A DNA stretch of 32,207 bases from Rhodospirillales bacterium (lineage in GTDB: Bacteria; Pseudomonadota; Alphaproteobacteria; Rhodospirillales; Defluviicoccaceae), in assembly GCA_016793875.1 (NCBI GenBank), contig JAEULG010000226.1, positions 1-32,207 of the forward strand. The letters are read 5' to 3'. How positions within the stretch are numbered: the stretch's first letter is position 1; each line of letters starts with the position of its first letter. This document shows positions 27,205 through 32,207 of this stretch, in pieces. The notes beneath the pieces are model-generated. The model had not been told where the DNA came from and made no database searches. It saw only the letters and a list, made by a program, of their open reading frames with translations. The position numbers and the translations under genes are program-made.

Positions 27205-27402
27205 TCAGCGGGAAGCCAGCCGCTCGAAGCTGCGGGTCAGCCGGCCATTGCCGTCGATGATCGCATCGAGGAACTGTTGCCGTTCGCCGCGCTGCATTCT
27301 GCGGTTGTCGCGGAGGATCTCGGCTGCTGCCTGGATCACCGCAACACAGGTCCGCCATTCGTGTTCAACCGCGGAATGATGGCTGGCGTCACAGTGGTTC
27401 AT
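27205..27402 (-). CDS. Small HisKA-like (phospho-acceptor helical hairpin) protein without ATPase domain
   Basis: A 65-residue protein beginning MNHCDASHHS. The body EHEWRTCVAVIQAAAEILRD, then RGERQQFLDAIIDGNGRLTRSFERL, resembles the two-helix dimerisation/phospho-acceptor domain of histidine kinases: the H-box HELRT appears as HEWRT with His14 kept, and the second helix matches the usual FLxxIxxNxxRLTRLxxxL pattern. The catalytic HATPase domain is absent and does not follow in any nearby frame. The N-terminus holds several His and Cys (His3, Cys4, His8, His9, Cys19), which could bind metal, though this is speculative. ATG at 27402 is chosen because AGGTGGG lies upstream and the frame before it looks non-coding. 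It is divergent from the metal-efflux operon. Confidence 0.65.
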   Translation of the reverse strand: MNHCDASHHSAVEHEWRTCVAVIQAAAEILRDNRRMQRGERQQFLDAIIDGNGRLTRSFERLASR

Positions 27403-27464: not shown

Positions 27465-27556
27465 CACACCATGGAGATGGTAATCTGCGGCAACCCAGGC
27501 AACGGGGGACCTGAAGGAGCCCAAATCCCCCCATTCTCAGCCCCGCCAACAACACG

Positions 27557-27585
27557 ATAATGGCAAGTTTACGTCCGGTATCCAA
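27557..27585 (-). promoter_or_regulatory. Candidate promoter for the phospho-acceptor mini-gene
   Basis: Minus-strand TTGGAT (27585-27580) and CATTAT (27562-27557) with 17-nt spacing. The expected start is near 27550, giving a leader of about 148 nt that includes the palindrome at 27444-27464. Confidence 0.4.
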
Positions 27586-27682: not shown

Positions 27683-28027
27683 ATGAGCAGGTCCCGGCTG
27701 CGCTTGCTGATCTCTTTGCTGGTCGTCTCGGCGCTCGCCCTCGGCGGGGTGGCGCACGCGCCGATGGCGGTTGCAAGCATCGCTACCGGCGGTGCAGTGG
27801 TGGCGGCAAGCCAGCCGCCATGTCACGAGATGGGCGCGCCGCAGCAGGCGCCGGTGAAGGCCCAACCCACGCTCGACTGCTGCCTGCTGTTTTGCACCAG
27901 CTTGCCGGCGACGACGACGCCGGCCACCCGGCCGCTGCACTATGCCAGTGTCGCCTTCGTGCTGCCGGGGGAACTGCCCCTCGTTCCCCGCACGCTTTCT
28001 CCCGAGCCCGGTCCGCCGCGCGCCTAA
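27683..28027 (+). CDS. Small exported Cys/His protein at the head of the metal-efflux operon (DUF2946/CopL-like)
   Basis: A 114-residue protein with an N-terminal signal segment (RLRLLISLLVVSALALGGVAHA) and a short mature region. Cys47-His48-x-Met50 (PPCHEMG) and Cys66-Cys67...Cys71 (LDCCLLFC) could bind copper; the tail is Pro-rich (LPLVPRTLSPEPGPPRA). Small proteins of this design (DUF2946 or CopL type) often precede copper-efflux genes and are linked to copper-responsive control. The family call rests on layout, the CHxM and CC motifs and position, not on a strong signature. The ATG lies just after a -10 box with no ribosome site. It is followed by a 141-nt gap with a hairpin before the next gene. 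Confidence 0.65.
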   Translation: MSRSRLRLLISLLVVSALALGGVAHAPMAVASIATGGAVVAASQPPCHEMGAPQQAPVKAQPTLDCCLLFCTSLPATTTPATRPLHYASVAFVLPGELPLVPRTLSPEPGPPRA

Positions 28028-28060
28028 GCGTCAGGTTCCCTAGAAGCTGTTGATATGGCC

Positions 28061-28086
28061 TGCGTCCGCCGTTCTGCGCGGACGCA
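28061..28086 (+). terminator. Hairpin inside the metal operon
   Basis: Perfect 9-bp inverted repeat (TGCGTCCGC, 8-nt loop, GCGGACGCA) between the small Cys/His protein gene and the YtkA-like gene. No T-run follows. It may partly stop transcription or set different mRNA levels for the two parts. Confidence 0.4.
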
Positions 28087-28168
28087 ACGAGGCGGCGCGT
28101 TCCGGTCGGGCTTTCCAATCCCCAGCCCACCCCGGTGCGGCGTGCGCAAGCACGGGAGAGGTCTGATT

Positions 28169-28621
28169 GTGTTGAAAGTTCTGAGTTCCGCGGCCCGGGC
28201 GGTCGCGATGGCTGTCGCGTTGTTTGGCGGGGTCTTCGGCCTCGCTCCGCGTCCGGCACTGGCGGTCGGTCCCGCGTTCCGCCTGGAGGCGGTCGGGCCG
28301 GCGGTTCCCGTGGGCCGCGAGGCGGCGGTGGTGGTCCGGCTGGTGGATGCGGCCACCGGTGCGCCGGTGGCGAATGCCGTCGTCTTCCGTGCCCGGCTCG
28401 ACATGGCGCCCGAAGGCATGGGTGACATGGCGGCGGTGCTGAAGCCGGCCACATCGCCCGATTCCGCCGTGTATCGTTTTACAACCACCCTTACCATGCC
28501 TGGGCGCTGGCTGCTGACGGTGCAGGCGAAGGTCCCCGGCGTCACCGAGACGGTCCGTGCCGAGACCATCATCACCGCCGTCGAGCCGGCGGCCGGTGCG
28601 GCGCCGCCGCATCAGCACTGA
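28169..28621 (+). CDS. YtkA/FixH-like exported protein with Met motif
   Basis: A 150-residue protein. GTG at 28169 is chosen for its GGGAGAGG ribosome site and because it opens a signal peptide (MLKVLSSAARAVAMAVALFG...PALA, cleavage near residue 32). The mature part is one immunoglobulin-like beta domain of the YtkA/FixH group (VPVGREAAVVVRLVDAATGAPVANAVVFRARLDM, then YRFTTTLTMPGRWLLTVQAKVPG). Met79, Met84 and Met87 (MAPEGMGDM) match the copper-binding turn often seen in periplasmic proteins of this group, and the C-terminus ends PPHQH. It is probably a periplasmic copper-binding accessory of the efflux system. Its stop overlaps the CusC-like start (TGATG). Confidence 0.8.
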   Translation: MLKVLSSAARAVAMAVALFGGVFGLAPRPALAVGPAFRLEAVGPAVPVGREAAVVVRLVDAATGAPVANAVVFRARLDMAPEGMGDMAAVLKPATSPDSAVYRFTTTLTMPGRWLLTVQAKVPGVTETVRAETIITAVEPAAGAAPPHQH

Positions 28622-29943
28622 TGCGCCCGTCGCATGGCCGGGCGCTGGTCCGGCTGCTGCTGCTGGCGGTGGCGCTGGCGCCGCCGGGCGTAGCTTGGGC
28701 GCAGACCGGGGCGCAGGCCGGAGCGAGCGAATCAGTGGGCGGCGAGCCACCGCTCGGCGCCCGCCTCGACGAGCTGCTGGAGATGGGGCGTCGGCTCAAT
28801 CCCGGCGTTGCCGCGGCGGCGCTGGAGGCCGACGCGGCGCATGCCCGCATCGGCGCCGCCGGCCGCTTCCCTGATCCCGTCTTCACCACCGAAATCGAGG
28901 ACATCCGGGCGAGCGGCAGCACCGCCGCGCCGGAGAGCGTCGGCCGGGTGAAGTACACCCTCGCCCAGACCATCCCGCTGTGGGGCAAGCGCGGGCTGGA
29001 ACGGGACGTGGCGCAGGCCGAGGCGGGCGCCGCCGACCAGCAACGGCGCTCCGCCGAGCAGGAGCTGGCGTGGCGGATCAAGACGGTGTTCGCGCAAGGC
29101 TACGCCGCGGCGGCCACCGTGCGCATCACCCGCGAGCTGCTGGCGACACTGGACAGCATCGCCCGGGTGGCGCAGAGCCGCTACGCCCAGGGCCAGGGCA
29201 ACCAGCAGGACGCGATCAGTGCCGAGGCGGAGAAGGGACGCCTGCAGCTCGACCTGGAACGGGCCGAGGCGCAACGCCTCGCCGCGGCGGCGCGGCTGAA
29301 TGCGCTGCTCGATCGGCCGGCGGGGGCGCTGCTGGCGCCGCCGCAGTCGTTGCCGCCGGTGCCGGGCGCCGACGCGATGCCCCTGGAGGCGGTGCTGGCG
29401 CAGGCGGAGGTCGCCAACCCGCAACTGGCGCAGGCGCGGGCGGAGATCACCGCCTTCGAACGCAGCGCCGAACTGGTCCAACGCTCGTGGTACCCGGACG
29501 TCACTCTCGGCGTCACCGTCTACGACGAGGACGGCGATAACGACCGTCAGTTCGGCGGCTACGAGGCGATGGTCTCGCTCGACGTGCCGCTGCAATGGGG
29601 CCTCCGCCGGGCGCGCGAGCGCGATGCGCACGCAAAGCTGGCAGCCTCGCGGGCGCGGCGCGAGGACGCCGCGGCGAGCCTGCGCGGCGACATTGCCGAG
29701 GCGTGGTGGGCGCTGGAGGCGGCCCGCCGCAGCGAGGGGGTGCTGCGCCGGATCAACATCCCGCAGTCGGCGGTAATGCTGCGCTCGGCGCAGGCCGGCT
29801 ACGAGCTCGGCAGCGCCGACCTGCCGGGCGTGCTGCTGGCGGAGCAGGGAGTGCGGCGAACGGAGCTGGATTTCATCGGCGTGCAGGTCGAGCAGCAGAT
29901 GCGGCTGGCCGACCTGGAACGATTGGTCGGCGGAGATCTTTAG
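28621..29943 (+). CDS. TolC-family outer-membrane channel of the metal efflux system (CusC-like)
   Basis: A 440-residue protein with a cleavable signal peptide (RLLLLAVALAPPGVAWA, about 1-27; no lipid-attachment Cys, unlike E. coli CusC). Two TolC/OEP repeats are visible as long helical hairpins: RLDELLEMGRRLNPGVAAAALEADAAHARIGAAGRFPDPVF with FAQGYAAAATVRITRELLATLDSIARVAQSRYAQGQGNQQDAISAEAEKGRLQLDLERAEAQ, and the second half from ANPQLAQARAEITAFERSAELVQRSWYPDVTLGV to QAGYELGSADLPGVLLAEQGVRRTELDFIGVQVEQQMRLADLERLVG. It forms the trimeric exit duct for the RND pump. Its start overlaps the YtkA-like stop and its own stop abuts the CusB-like start, so the genes are translated together. Confidence 0.9.
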   Translation: MRPSHGRALVRLLLLAVALAPPGVAWAQTGAQAGASESVGGEPPLGARLDELLEMGRRLNPGVAAAALEADAAHARIGAAGRFPDPVFTTEIEDIRASGSTAAPESVGRVKYTLAQTIPLWGKRGLERDVAQAEAGAADQQRRSAEQELAWRIKTVFAQGYAAAATVRITRELLATLDSIARVAQSRYAQGQGNQQDAISAEAEKGRLQLDLERAEAQRLAAAARLNALLDRPAGALLAPPQSLPPVPGADAMPLEAVLAQAEVANPQLAQARAEITAFERSAELVQRSWYPDVTLGVTVYDEDGDNDRQFGGYEAMVSLDVPLQWGLRRARERDAHAKLAASRARREDAAASLRGDIAEAWWALEAARRSEGVLRRINIPQSAVMLRSAQAGYELGSADLPGVLLAEQGVRRTELDFIGVQVEQQMRLADLERLVGGDL

Positions 29944-31395
29944 ATGCGCACCCTTACCCTCACCCTAGCGGCGGTGGCGATAACCGCGGCCGGGATGGCC
30001 GGTGGTTTCCTCGCCGGCCGCTCGGGCCTGTTCGGGGACTCCGCCTCCATGCCCACCGCGGCGCCTGTCCCGGTGGCGGCGCCGGTGGAGCGGCAGGTGC
30101 TCTACTACCGTGATCCGAGCGGGCTGCCGGACTATTCGCCGGTACCGAAGCAGGACGCCGGCGGCCGCGACTACCTGCCGGTCTATGACGACCAGGAAGC
30201 GGAGCTGGCGCCGCCGTCCCCGCCGCCATCAGGCCGCGGCCGCATCCTCTACTACCGCAATCCGATGGGCCTGCCCGACACCTCGCCGACGCCGAAGAAG
30301 GACCAGATGGGGATGGACTATATCCCGGTCTACGAGACCGGGGCGGGCGACGACGCCGGCATCGTCGCGGTGAGCCCGCAGCGGGTGCAGGTGCTCGGCG
30401 TGCGCAGCGAAGCCGTGCAGGAGCGGGCGCTGGTGCGCTCGATCCACGCTGCCGGCACCGTTGCCTACGACGAGAGGCGCACCTTCGTCGTCACCACCAA
30501 GATCGGCGGGTGGATCGAGCGGCTGCTGGTCAACGCGACCGGCGAGACCATCCGCCGCGGCCAGCCGCTGATGCAGATCTACAGCCCCGAACTGTTGCTG
30601 GCGCAGCAGGAATACGTCGCGCTGCGGGAGGCGACGGCCGGAGCGCAAGGCAGCGGCGACGATGTCTCCGCCCGGCTGCTCGATGGCGCCCTGCGCCGCC
30701 TGGGGGCGCTGGATGCTCCGGAGGACGTGGTGCAGGCGCTGCAGCGCGGCGGCGGCCCGCAGCGCACCGTCACTTTGCGCTCGCCTTACGCCGGCACCGT
30801 CATCGACAAGCCGGCGGTCGAGGGGATGCGCTTCACGCCGGGCGACACCCTCTACCGCATCGTCGATCTCGCCACCGTCTGGCTGATCGCCGACGTTTTC
30901 GAGCAGGATCTCGCCGCCGTCGCGCTGGGCGAGCGCGCCGCCGTCACCCTGAAAGCCTACCCCGGCCGCAGCTTCACCGGCCGCGTCGCCTTCATCTATC
31001 CGTCGGTCGGCGGCGATACCCGCACCGCGCGGGTGCGCATCGAGCTGGCCAACCCCGACGGCCTGCTGAAGGAGAACATGTACGCGACCGTCGAGATCGC
31101 CGCACCGGCCCGCCGGCCGGCGCCGGCGGTTCCCCTCTCGGCGATCATCGACAGCGGCGCGCGGCAGGTGGTGCTGATTGATCACGGCGACGGCCGCTTC
31201 GAGCCGCGCGAGGTGCGGCTCGGAACCCGCGGCGACGGCTACGCCGAGGTGGTGGAAGGGGTGCGCGCTGGCGACCGCGTCGTCACCTCCGCCAACTTCC
31301 TGATTGACGCCGAGAGCAACCTGCGGGCGGCGCTGCAGGCGTTCACGGCACCGGCTGCCGCCGGGCCGGCAGCGGGTGTGGAGGGCGGCCGATGA
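29944..31395 (+). CDS. Metal-efflux RND periplasmic adaptor (CusB-like) with two heavy-metal-binding domain repeats
   Basis: A 483-residue membrane-fusion protein. A signal or anchor helix (LTLAAVAITAAGMAGGFLAG) is followed by two tandem copies of the short domain seen at the front of CusB relatives: copy 1 LYYRDPSGLPDYSPVPKQDA and GGRDYLPVY, copy 2 LYYRNPMGLPDTSPTPKKDQ and MGMDYIPVY. Copy 2 keeps three Met; copy 1 has none. The barrel-sandwich and hairpin follow (FVVTTKIGGWIERLLVNATGETIRRGQPLMQIYSPELLLAQQEY), then the beta-barrel (VEGMRFTPGDTLYRIVDLATVWLIADVFEQDLAAVALGERAAVTLKAYPGRSF) and the membrane-proximal part. It links the pump to the outer channel and passes metal ions. The start abuts the CusC-like stop; its stop overlaps the CusA-like start (ATGA). 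Confidence 0.92.
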   Translation: MRTLTLTLAAVAITAAGMAGGFLAGRSGLFGDSASMPTAAPVPVAAPVERQVLYYRDPSGLPDYSPVPKQDAGGRDYLPVYDDQEAELAPPSPPPSGRGRILYYRNPMGLPDTSPTPKKDQMGMDYIPVYETGAGDDAGIVAVSPQRVQVLGVRSEAVQERALVRSIHAAGTVAYDERRTFVVTTKIGGWIERLLVNATGETIRRGQPLMQIYSPELLLAQQEYVALREATAGAQGSGDDVSARLLDGALRRLGALDAPEDVVQALQRGGGPQRTVTLRSPYAGTVIDKPAVEGMRFTPGDTLYRIVDLATVWLIADVFEQDLAAVALGERAAVTLKAYPGRSFTGRVAFIYPSVGGDTRTARVRIELANPDGLLKENMYATVEIAAPARRPAPAVPLSAIIDSGARQVVLIDHGDGRFEPREVRLGTRGDGYAEVVEGVRAGDRVVTSANFLIDAESNLRAALQAFTAPAAAGPAAGVEGGR

Positions 31396-32207
31396 TCGCC
31401 GCGATCATCCGCTGGTCGGCGCGCAACGTCGCGCTGGTGCTGATCGGAACCGCCTTCATCATCGGCGCCGGCCTGTGGTCGGTCTCGCGGATGCCGCTCG
31501 ACGCCATCCCGGACCTCTCCGACGTGCAGGTGATCGTCTACACCGAGTACCCCGGCCAGGCACCACAGGTCGTCGAGGACCAGATCACCTACCCGCTGAG
31601 CACCGCCTTGCTCAGCGTGCCGCGGGCGCGGGTGGTGCGCGGCTTCTCGTTCTTCGGCGCTTCGTTCGTCTATGTCATCTTCGAGGACGGCACCGACGTC
31701 TACTGGGCGCGCTCGCGCGTCCTCGAATACCTGAACACCGTCCAACGGCGGATGCCAGAAGGCGTCGCTCCAACCCTCGGCCCGGACGCCACCGGGGTCG
31801 GCTGGGTGTTCCAGTACGCCATCGTTGCCGCCAACCGGACGCTGGCGGAGCTGCGCTCGCTGCAGGACTGGCAGGTCCGCTATGCGCTGGCGGAGGCGGA
31901 CGGCGTTGCCGAGGTCGCCAGCGTCGGCGGCTTCGTAAAGACCTACAGCGTCATCGTCGATCCGCACCGGCTGCATTCGCTGGGGATCCCGCTCTCCCGC
32001 GTCGTCGAGGCGATCCGGCAGAGCAACCGCGATGTCGGCGGTCGGGTGATCGAGATGGCGGAGACCGAGTTCGTCGTCCGCGGCCGCGGCTACCTGCGCG
32101 GCATCGCCGACATCGAGCAGATCGTGCTGAAGTCGGACGGGCTGACGCCGGTGCGCCTCGGCGATGTCGCCCGCGTCGAATTGGCGCCGGACGAGCGCCG
32201 CGGGCTG
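31392..32207 (+). CDS. Heavy-metal RND efflux pump (CusA-like), N-terminal part cut by window edge
   Basis: The first 272 codons of an RND pump that would be over 1000 residues long. MIAAIIRWSARNVALVLIGT and FIIGAGLWSVSRMPLDAIPDLSDVQVIVYTEYPGQAPQVVEDQITYPLSTALLSVP are the signature N-terminus of the CzcA/CusA heavy-metal branch, with one membrane helix (about 11-32) and the start of the periplasmic porter domain (VRGFSFFGASFVYVIFEDGTDVYWARSRVLEYL). VGWVFQYAIVAANRTLAELRSLQDWQVRYALAEADGVAEVASVGGFVKTY favours the monovalent (Cu/Ag) CusA group. The metal-binding methionines lie beyond the edge, so the ion is inferred. ATG at 31392 overlaps the adaptor stop. Confidence 0.93.
   Translation, partial: MIAAIIRWSARNVALVLIGTAFIIGAGLWSVSRMPLDAIPDLSDVQVIVYTEYPGQAPQVVEDQITYPLSTALLSVPRARVVRGFSFFGASFVYVIFEDGTDVYWARSRVLEYLNTVQRRMPEGVAPTLGPDATGVGWVFQYAIVAANRTLAELRSLQDWQVRYALAEADGVAEVASVGGFVKTYSVIVDPHRLHSLGIPLSRVVEAIRQSNRDVGGRVIEMAETEFVVRGRGYLRGIADIEQIVLKSDGLTPVRLGDVARVELAPDERRGL

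Follow-up and report, generated by a model that had tools for sequence, protein, structure and literature searches.

A stand-alone 65-residue homolog of the sensor-kinase dimerization hairpin, from a small Defluviicoccus-group family in which the phospho-acceptor histidine is generally lost

In sensor histidine kinases, the dimerization domain (HisKA/DHp) has a hydrophobic hairpin that builds the four-helix bundle and is the docking site for the response regulator. The HOS domain of RpBphP1 is a DHp homolog that dimerizes and binds a repressor (PMC6899989). RocA acts on CovS without its histidine, and overexpressed RocA can complement when its CA domain is missing (PMC7028121). Sda (46 aa) and KipI inhibit kinases by binding to their DHp (PMC8534201). 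A literature search for stand-alone HisKA proteins, with subscription journals mostly outside its coverage, found no direct precedent.

The window analyzed here is a 32,207-nucleotide stretch from a Rhodospirillales bacterium of the Defluviicoccaceae; the Defluviicoccus group matters for wastewater phosphorus removal. A short ORF on its minus strand (27402..27205) translates as MNHCDASHHSAVEHEWRTCVAVIQAAAEILRDNRRMQRGERQQFLDAIIDGNGRLTRSFERLASR, followed by the stop codon, with a Shine-Dalgarno-like AGGTGG located 9 bases 5' of the ATG (Table 1). A longer TTG start, which would give 126 aa, was set aside because the frame of the ortholog is closed 12 codons before its Met. The sole Pfam match of the 65-aa protein is HisKA (PF00512), with an E-value of 1.1e-5 over profile positions 8-57 of 66 and a score of 25.8 bits, about 1 bit under the curated cut-off of 26.9. 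Its NCBIfam matches are all histidine-kinase models, the best being CreC (8e-5), over the HisKA part of that model. Scored with an HMM derived from 30 HisKA domains of kinases in its own genus, the protein reached 20.0 bits, a value attained by 0 of 5000 shuffles (shuffle maximum 13.2). The protein is homologous to HisKA, a lone copy of the sensor-kinase dimerization hairpin. The sequence-only reading had called it HisKA-like and proposed a profile search as the check; the Pfam match falls just short of its cut-off, and the shuffles and the predicted hairpin described below support the homology.

The protein stops after the second helix, and the start codon of the same-strand ABC-F gene lies 78 bases downstream, which leaves no room for a HATPase domain in the gene. 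The protein itself lacks the HATPase of a sensor histidine kinase; the other window genes tested are unrelated, and neither a HATPase nor a sensor or receiver was detected in them. The earlier description of a stand-alone form, with none of these domains in the protein or nearby, is thus upheld, as is its placement beside a divergent metal-efflux operon (28055-32207: YtkA, OEP, HlyD_D23 and the start of an RND gene). The first gene of that operon (27683-28024, plus strand) encodes a 113-aa Cys-containing protein with no Pfam match, and the divergent intergenic region contains one sigma-70-like promoter match on the efflux-operon strand (27534-27561, plus strand; 0.1 expected). Across the whole genome, a PF00512 search recovered 17 HisKA domains in long frames plus the 65-aa short one; a second short gene, on contig C275, was found by protein and alignment queries only and not by the PF00512 search.

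Table 1. Features of the window discussed in the text.
Feature	Coordinates	Strand	Basis
Stand-alone HisKA/DHp hairpin protein, 65 aa	27205..27402	-	Stop codon within coordinates; Pfam HisKA, AF2, shuffles, syntenic ortholog
H-box remnant H-E-W-R-T-C	27346..27363	-	Alignment of eight short genes; His kept in window copy only, canonical Pro replaced by Cys
ABC-F type ATPase gene, 632 aa	25228..27126	-	Pfam ABC_tran twice, ABC_tran_Xtn, ABC_tran_CTD; next gene downstream
Cyclic-nucleotide-binding domain protein, 116 aa	24801..25151	-	Pfam cNMP_binding E 3.7e-14; third gene of the conserved block

The AF2 model of the protein (six sequences) consists of two helices, residues 3-32 and 38-64, with a mean pLDDT of 87.2, the two-helix arrangement of a DHp hairpin. 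A DHp-type hairpin is predicted by AF2 for two members of the short family, the syntenic ortholog described below not among them. Foldseek ranks histidine-kinase DHp structures first (HK853, SrrB and others; probability 0.98-1.00, TM ~0.8), with E-values of 0.03 or worse, weak values being expected of a short hairpin. The predicted hairpin superimposes on HK853 with an rmsd of 1.5-1.7 over 65 residues, and VIA-align likewise ranks the HK853 DHp at the top (Z 9.7). Helical hairpins score widely in structural comparison, so that a fold match alone proves little; because unrelated hairpins come next at Z 8-9, the DHp assignment rests on sequence and fold jointly.

A counterpart is found within the same genus, in Defluviicoccus sp. 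SSA4 (G003). This gene, L038 (6737-6973, minus strand), is 48% identical to the 65-aa protein over the core, and the order short gene, ABC-F gene, cNMP-binding gene is common to both loci. The adjoining ABC-F gene is 68% identical to that of the window, and the counterpart of the 116-aa protein matches cNMP_binding at E 3.2e-6. L038 is the ortholog of the 65-aa gene by position; other members of the genus that have the ABC-F gene carry no short gene at that place. The 116-aa protein, part of the block kept in G003, consists of a cNMP-binding domain alone, again a signaling domain that lacks an effector. The N-terminus of L038 (MNDAHSGLSPF) has no His/Cys-rich start, and no efflux operon is present beside it in G003, where the conserved neighbors are the ABC-F and cNMP-binding genes. 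Metal sensing, suggested for the window copy from these two features, is left unsupported, both being missing at L038.

Aligning eight short genes on the AEIL motif located the acceptor site. It holds His in the window copy (1/8), Gln in L038, L039, L040, L042 and L075, and Glu in L037 and L041. Because L038, the positional ortholog, has Gln where the 65-aa protein has His14, even the nearest counterpart has lost the site. The Pro of the H-box (HELRTP) is kept in 0/8 short genes, with Cys, Arg or Ser instead, and the invariant core comprises E28, I29, D32, F44, R54 and L55. The H-box His read earlier in the window copy (HEWRT) is confirmed there and is absent from the seven other complete short genes. 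Since the conserved acceptor His of HisKA is missing at the family level, the 65-aa protein is, judging by the alignment, not a full HisKA member as a phospho-acceptor domain. Nor does the family conserve the phosphorylatable His of a stand-alone phosphotransfer protein. Conservation of His14 among homologs had been chosen beforehand as the point on which that role would turn, and its loss counts against phosphotransfer as the family function.

Short HisKA-only genes occur in G003 (L038, L039), G000 (L037), G001 (L040), G002 (L041, L042) and G004 (L075), and G007, from a neighboring genus, has an incomplete one where a contig ends. The short frames are intact in five genomes, and the named records of these loci are Defluviicoccus and Rhodospirillales MAGs. 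HisKA profile matches of the other short genes are weak (E 1.6e-5 to 0.025, L075 lying outside the scan). In a search of 120 relatives, short genes were present, among the matches listed, in genus g1 and G007 only. A single-protein scan of a genome-contig collection returned no relative, and the type B alignment returned from it five Defluviicoccus or Rhodospirillales MAG loci. Plasmids and viral contigs gave no match, and among 385 genomes sampled across the class there was none outside the window's genome at E 1e-12, a strict threshold that distant short relatives could escape.

No kinase or response regulator was recognized beside the short genes examined. The type B copies showed no conserved neighbor beyond CoA ligases (27% identical, differently placed) and a small membrane protein encoded close to L037 and L040. 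Because contexts differ between copies, genomic linkage gives no clue. The small membrane proteins (L037:9192-9413 and L040:5448-5756) are similar, at 73% over 55 aa, and lie ~1-3 kb from the two type B short genes, which may be chance.

In a core-alignment tree, a branch with support 89/85 separates the nine short sequences from 30 kinase HisKA domains of two genomes, and one with support 98/96 separates them when only the ~930-aa kinases are used for comparison; with ~50 informative columns and gappy rows the tree cannot settle a single origin, and the grouping of the short sequences against the kinase domains is suggestive. The kinase nearest to them by sequence is a conserved protein of ~930 aa (L044/L077/L078). 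Its assignment to the CbrA/CrbS type was dropped, as its N-terminal part has no transporter domain according to Pfam. Elsewhere, L124 (G000:C126:3021-3227) belongs to a 965-codon frame with a kinase-type HisKA and the H-box SKELKTP, Lys replacing His, and is a possible pseudokinase.

Substitution patterns show that the short genes are under purifying selection and behave as working protein genes. The closest pair, L040/L042, has a dN of 0.041 and a dS of 0.306 (dN/dS 0.13), the window/L038 pair a dN of 0.33 and a dS of 1.36 (dN/dS about 0.25), and type B pairs give roughly 0.1-0.3 where dS is unsaturated; all are estimates from 47-69 codons, with dS near saturation for distant pairs. Ratios of about 0.13-0.25 indicate that these genes are not dead fragments.

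Our preferred reading, which we hold with roughly even confidence, is that the 65-aa gene encodes a stand-alone DHp hairpin from a small lineage-restricted family, in which His and Pro have generally been lost and the hydrophobic core kept, and that it acts by protein-protein contact. To the homology, predicted fold, family, His loss, purifying selection and missing ATP-binding domain, this adds that the hairpin would work without phosphate. The simplest inference would be that it contacts a kinase DHp or a receiver in trans, because there is no ATP-binding domain and mostly no acceptor His and the hydrophobic hairpin is kept. The hairpin may pair with the DHp of a full-length kinase through a four-helix bundle, or alternatively homodimerize and occupy a response regulator, and would thereby lower or tune that two-component pathway. 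As the most similar full-length kinase, the ~930-aa protein would be the first candidate partner, a choice made by sequence similarity alone. The earlier suggestion of a phosphotransfer or dimer-competing protein survives in its second half, which fits all data, and is weakened in its first. A more ambitious form, put forward tentatively, is that the genus possesses a family of His-less free DHp hairpins, encoded by dispersed single genes, which may serve as dominant-negative half-kinases regulating kinases in trans via mixed four-helix bundles.

A rather unlikely alternative is exaptation, with the DHp fold kept just as a dimerization or binding module whose target lies outside two-component signaling, as with the HOS domain and its repressor (PMC6899989). 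The loss of His and Pro, the lack of recognized two-component genes beside the copies, the conserved linkage of the window-type gene to the ABC-F and cNMP genes and the HOS precedent itself all speak for it. However, the core is still close to kinase DHp, the A1 model matching the ~930-aa kinases at ~60 bits, as expected if the partner remains a DHp or receiver. Phosphotransfer, in which a kinase would phosphorylate the window copy on His14 in trans and the phosphate would pass to a response regulator, is improbable: the window copy retains H-E-x-R-T, but its H-box Pro is Cys, and the site is Gln in the syntenic ortholog and Gln or Glu in all other readable copies. A functionless, decaying remnant of a kinase gene would account for the small size, the lack of any other kinase domain and the lineage restriction, but this reading is already disfavored, and very improbable, given the dN/dS values of the closest pair (0.13) and of window/L038 (about 0.25), the intact short frames in five genomes and the one orthologous position kept.

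Trans pairing with kinases, if it occurs, would make these hairpins an example of a DHp domain that was set free, lost its phosphate site and was retained by selection in the role of a small regulator. At only 65-100 aa, the short proteins make both a partner search and a structure simple to attempt.

Compared with the HisKA domain of sensor histidine kinases, the 65-aa protein shares profile positions 8-57 and a predicted hairpin that superposes on HK853, but it has no HATPase or sensor, scores under the Pfam cut-off, has lost the H-box Pro and belongs to a family without a conserved His. The HOS domain is, by description, alike in being a kinase-less DHp homolog that serves dimerization and protein binding (PMC6899989), although HOS is fused to a photosensor and the hairpin stands alone. 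RocA offers a functional analogy as a kinase-like protein with a His-independent action on a real kinase (PMC7028121); unlike the hairpin, it is a full-length membrane protein with a DHp and a degenerate CA domain. Sda and KipI are analogous in function only, as trans-acting modulators of a kinase via its DHp (PMC8534201); that source does not describe either of them as a HisKA homolog, whereas the 65-aa protein is itself a DHp relative. By inference, the 65-aa protein may operate in the mode of a DHp-based binding protein.
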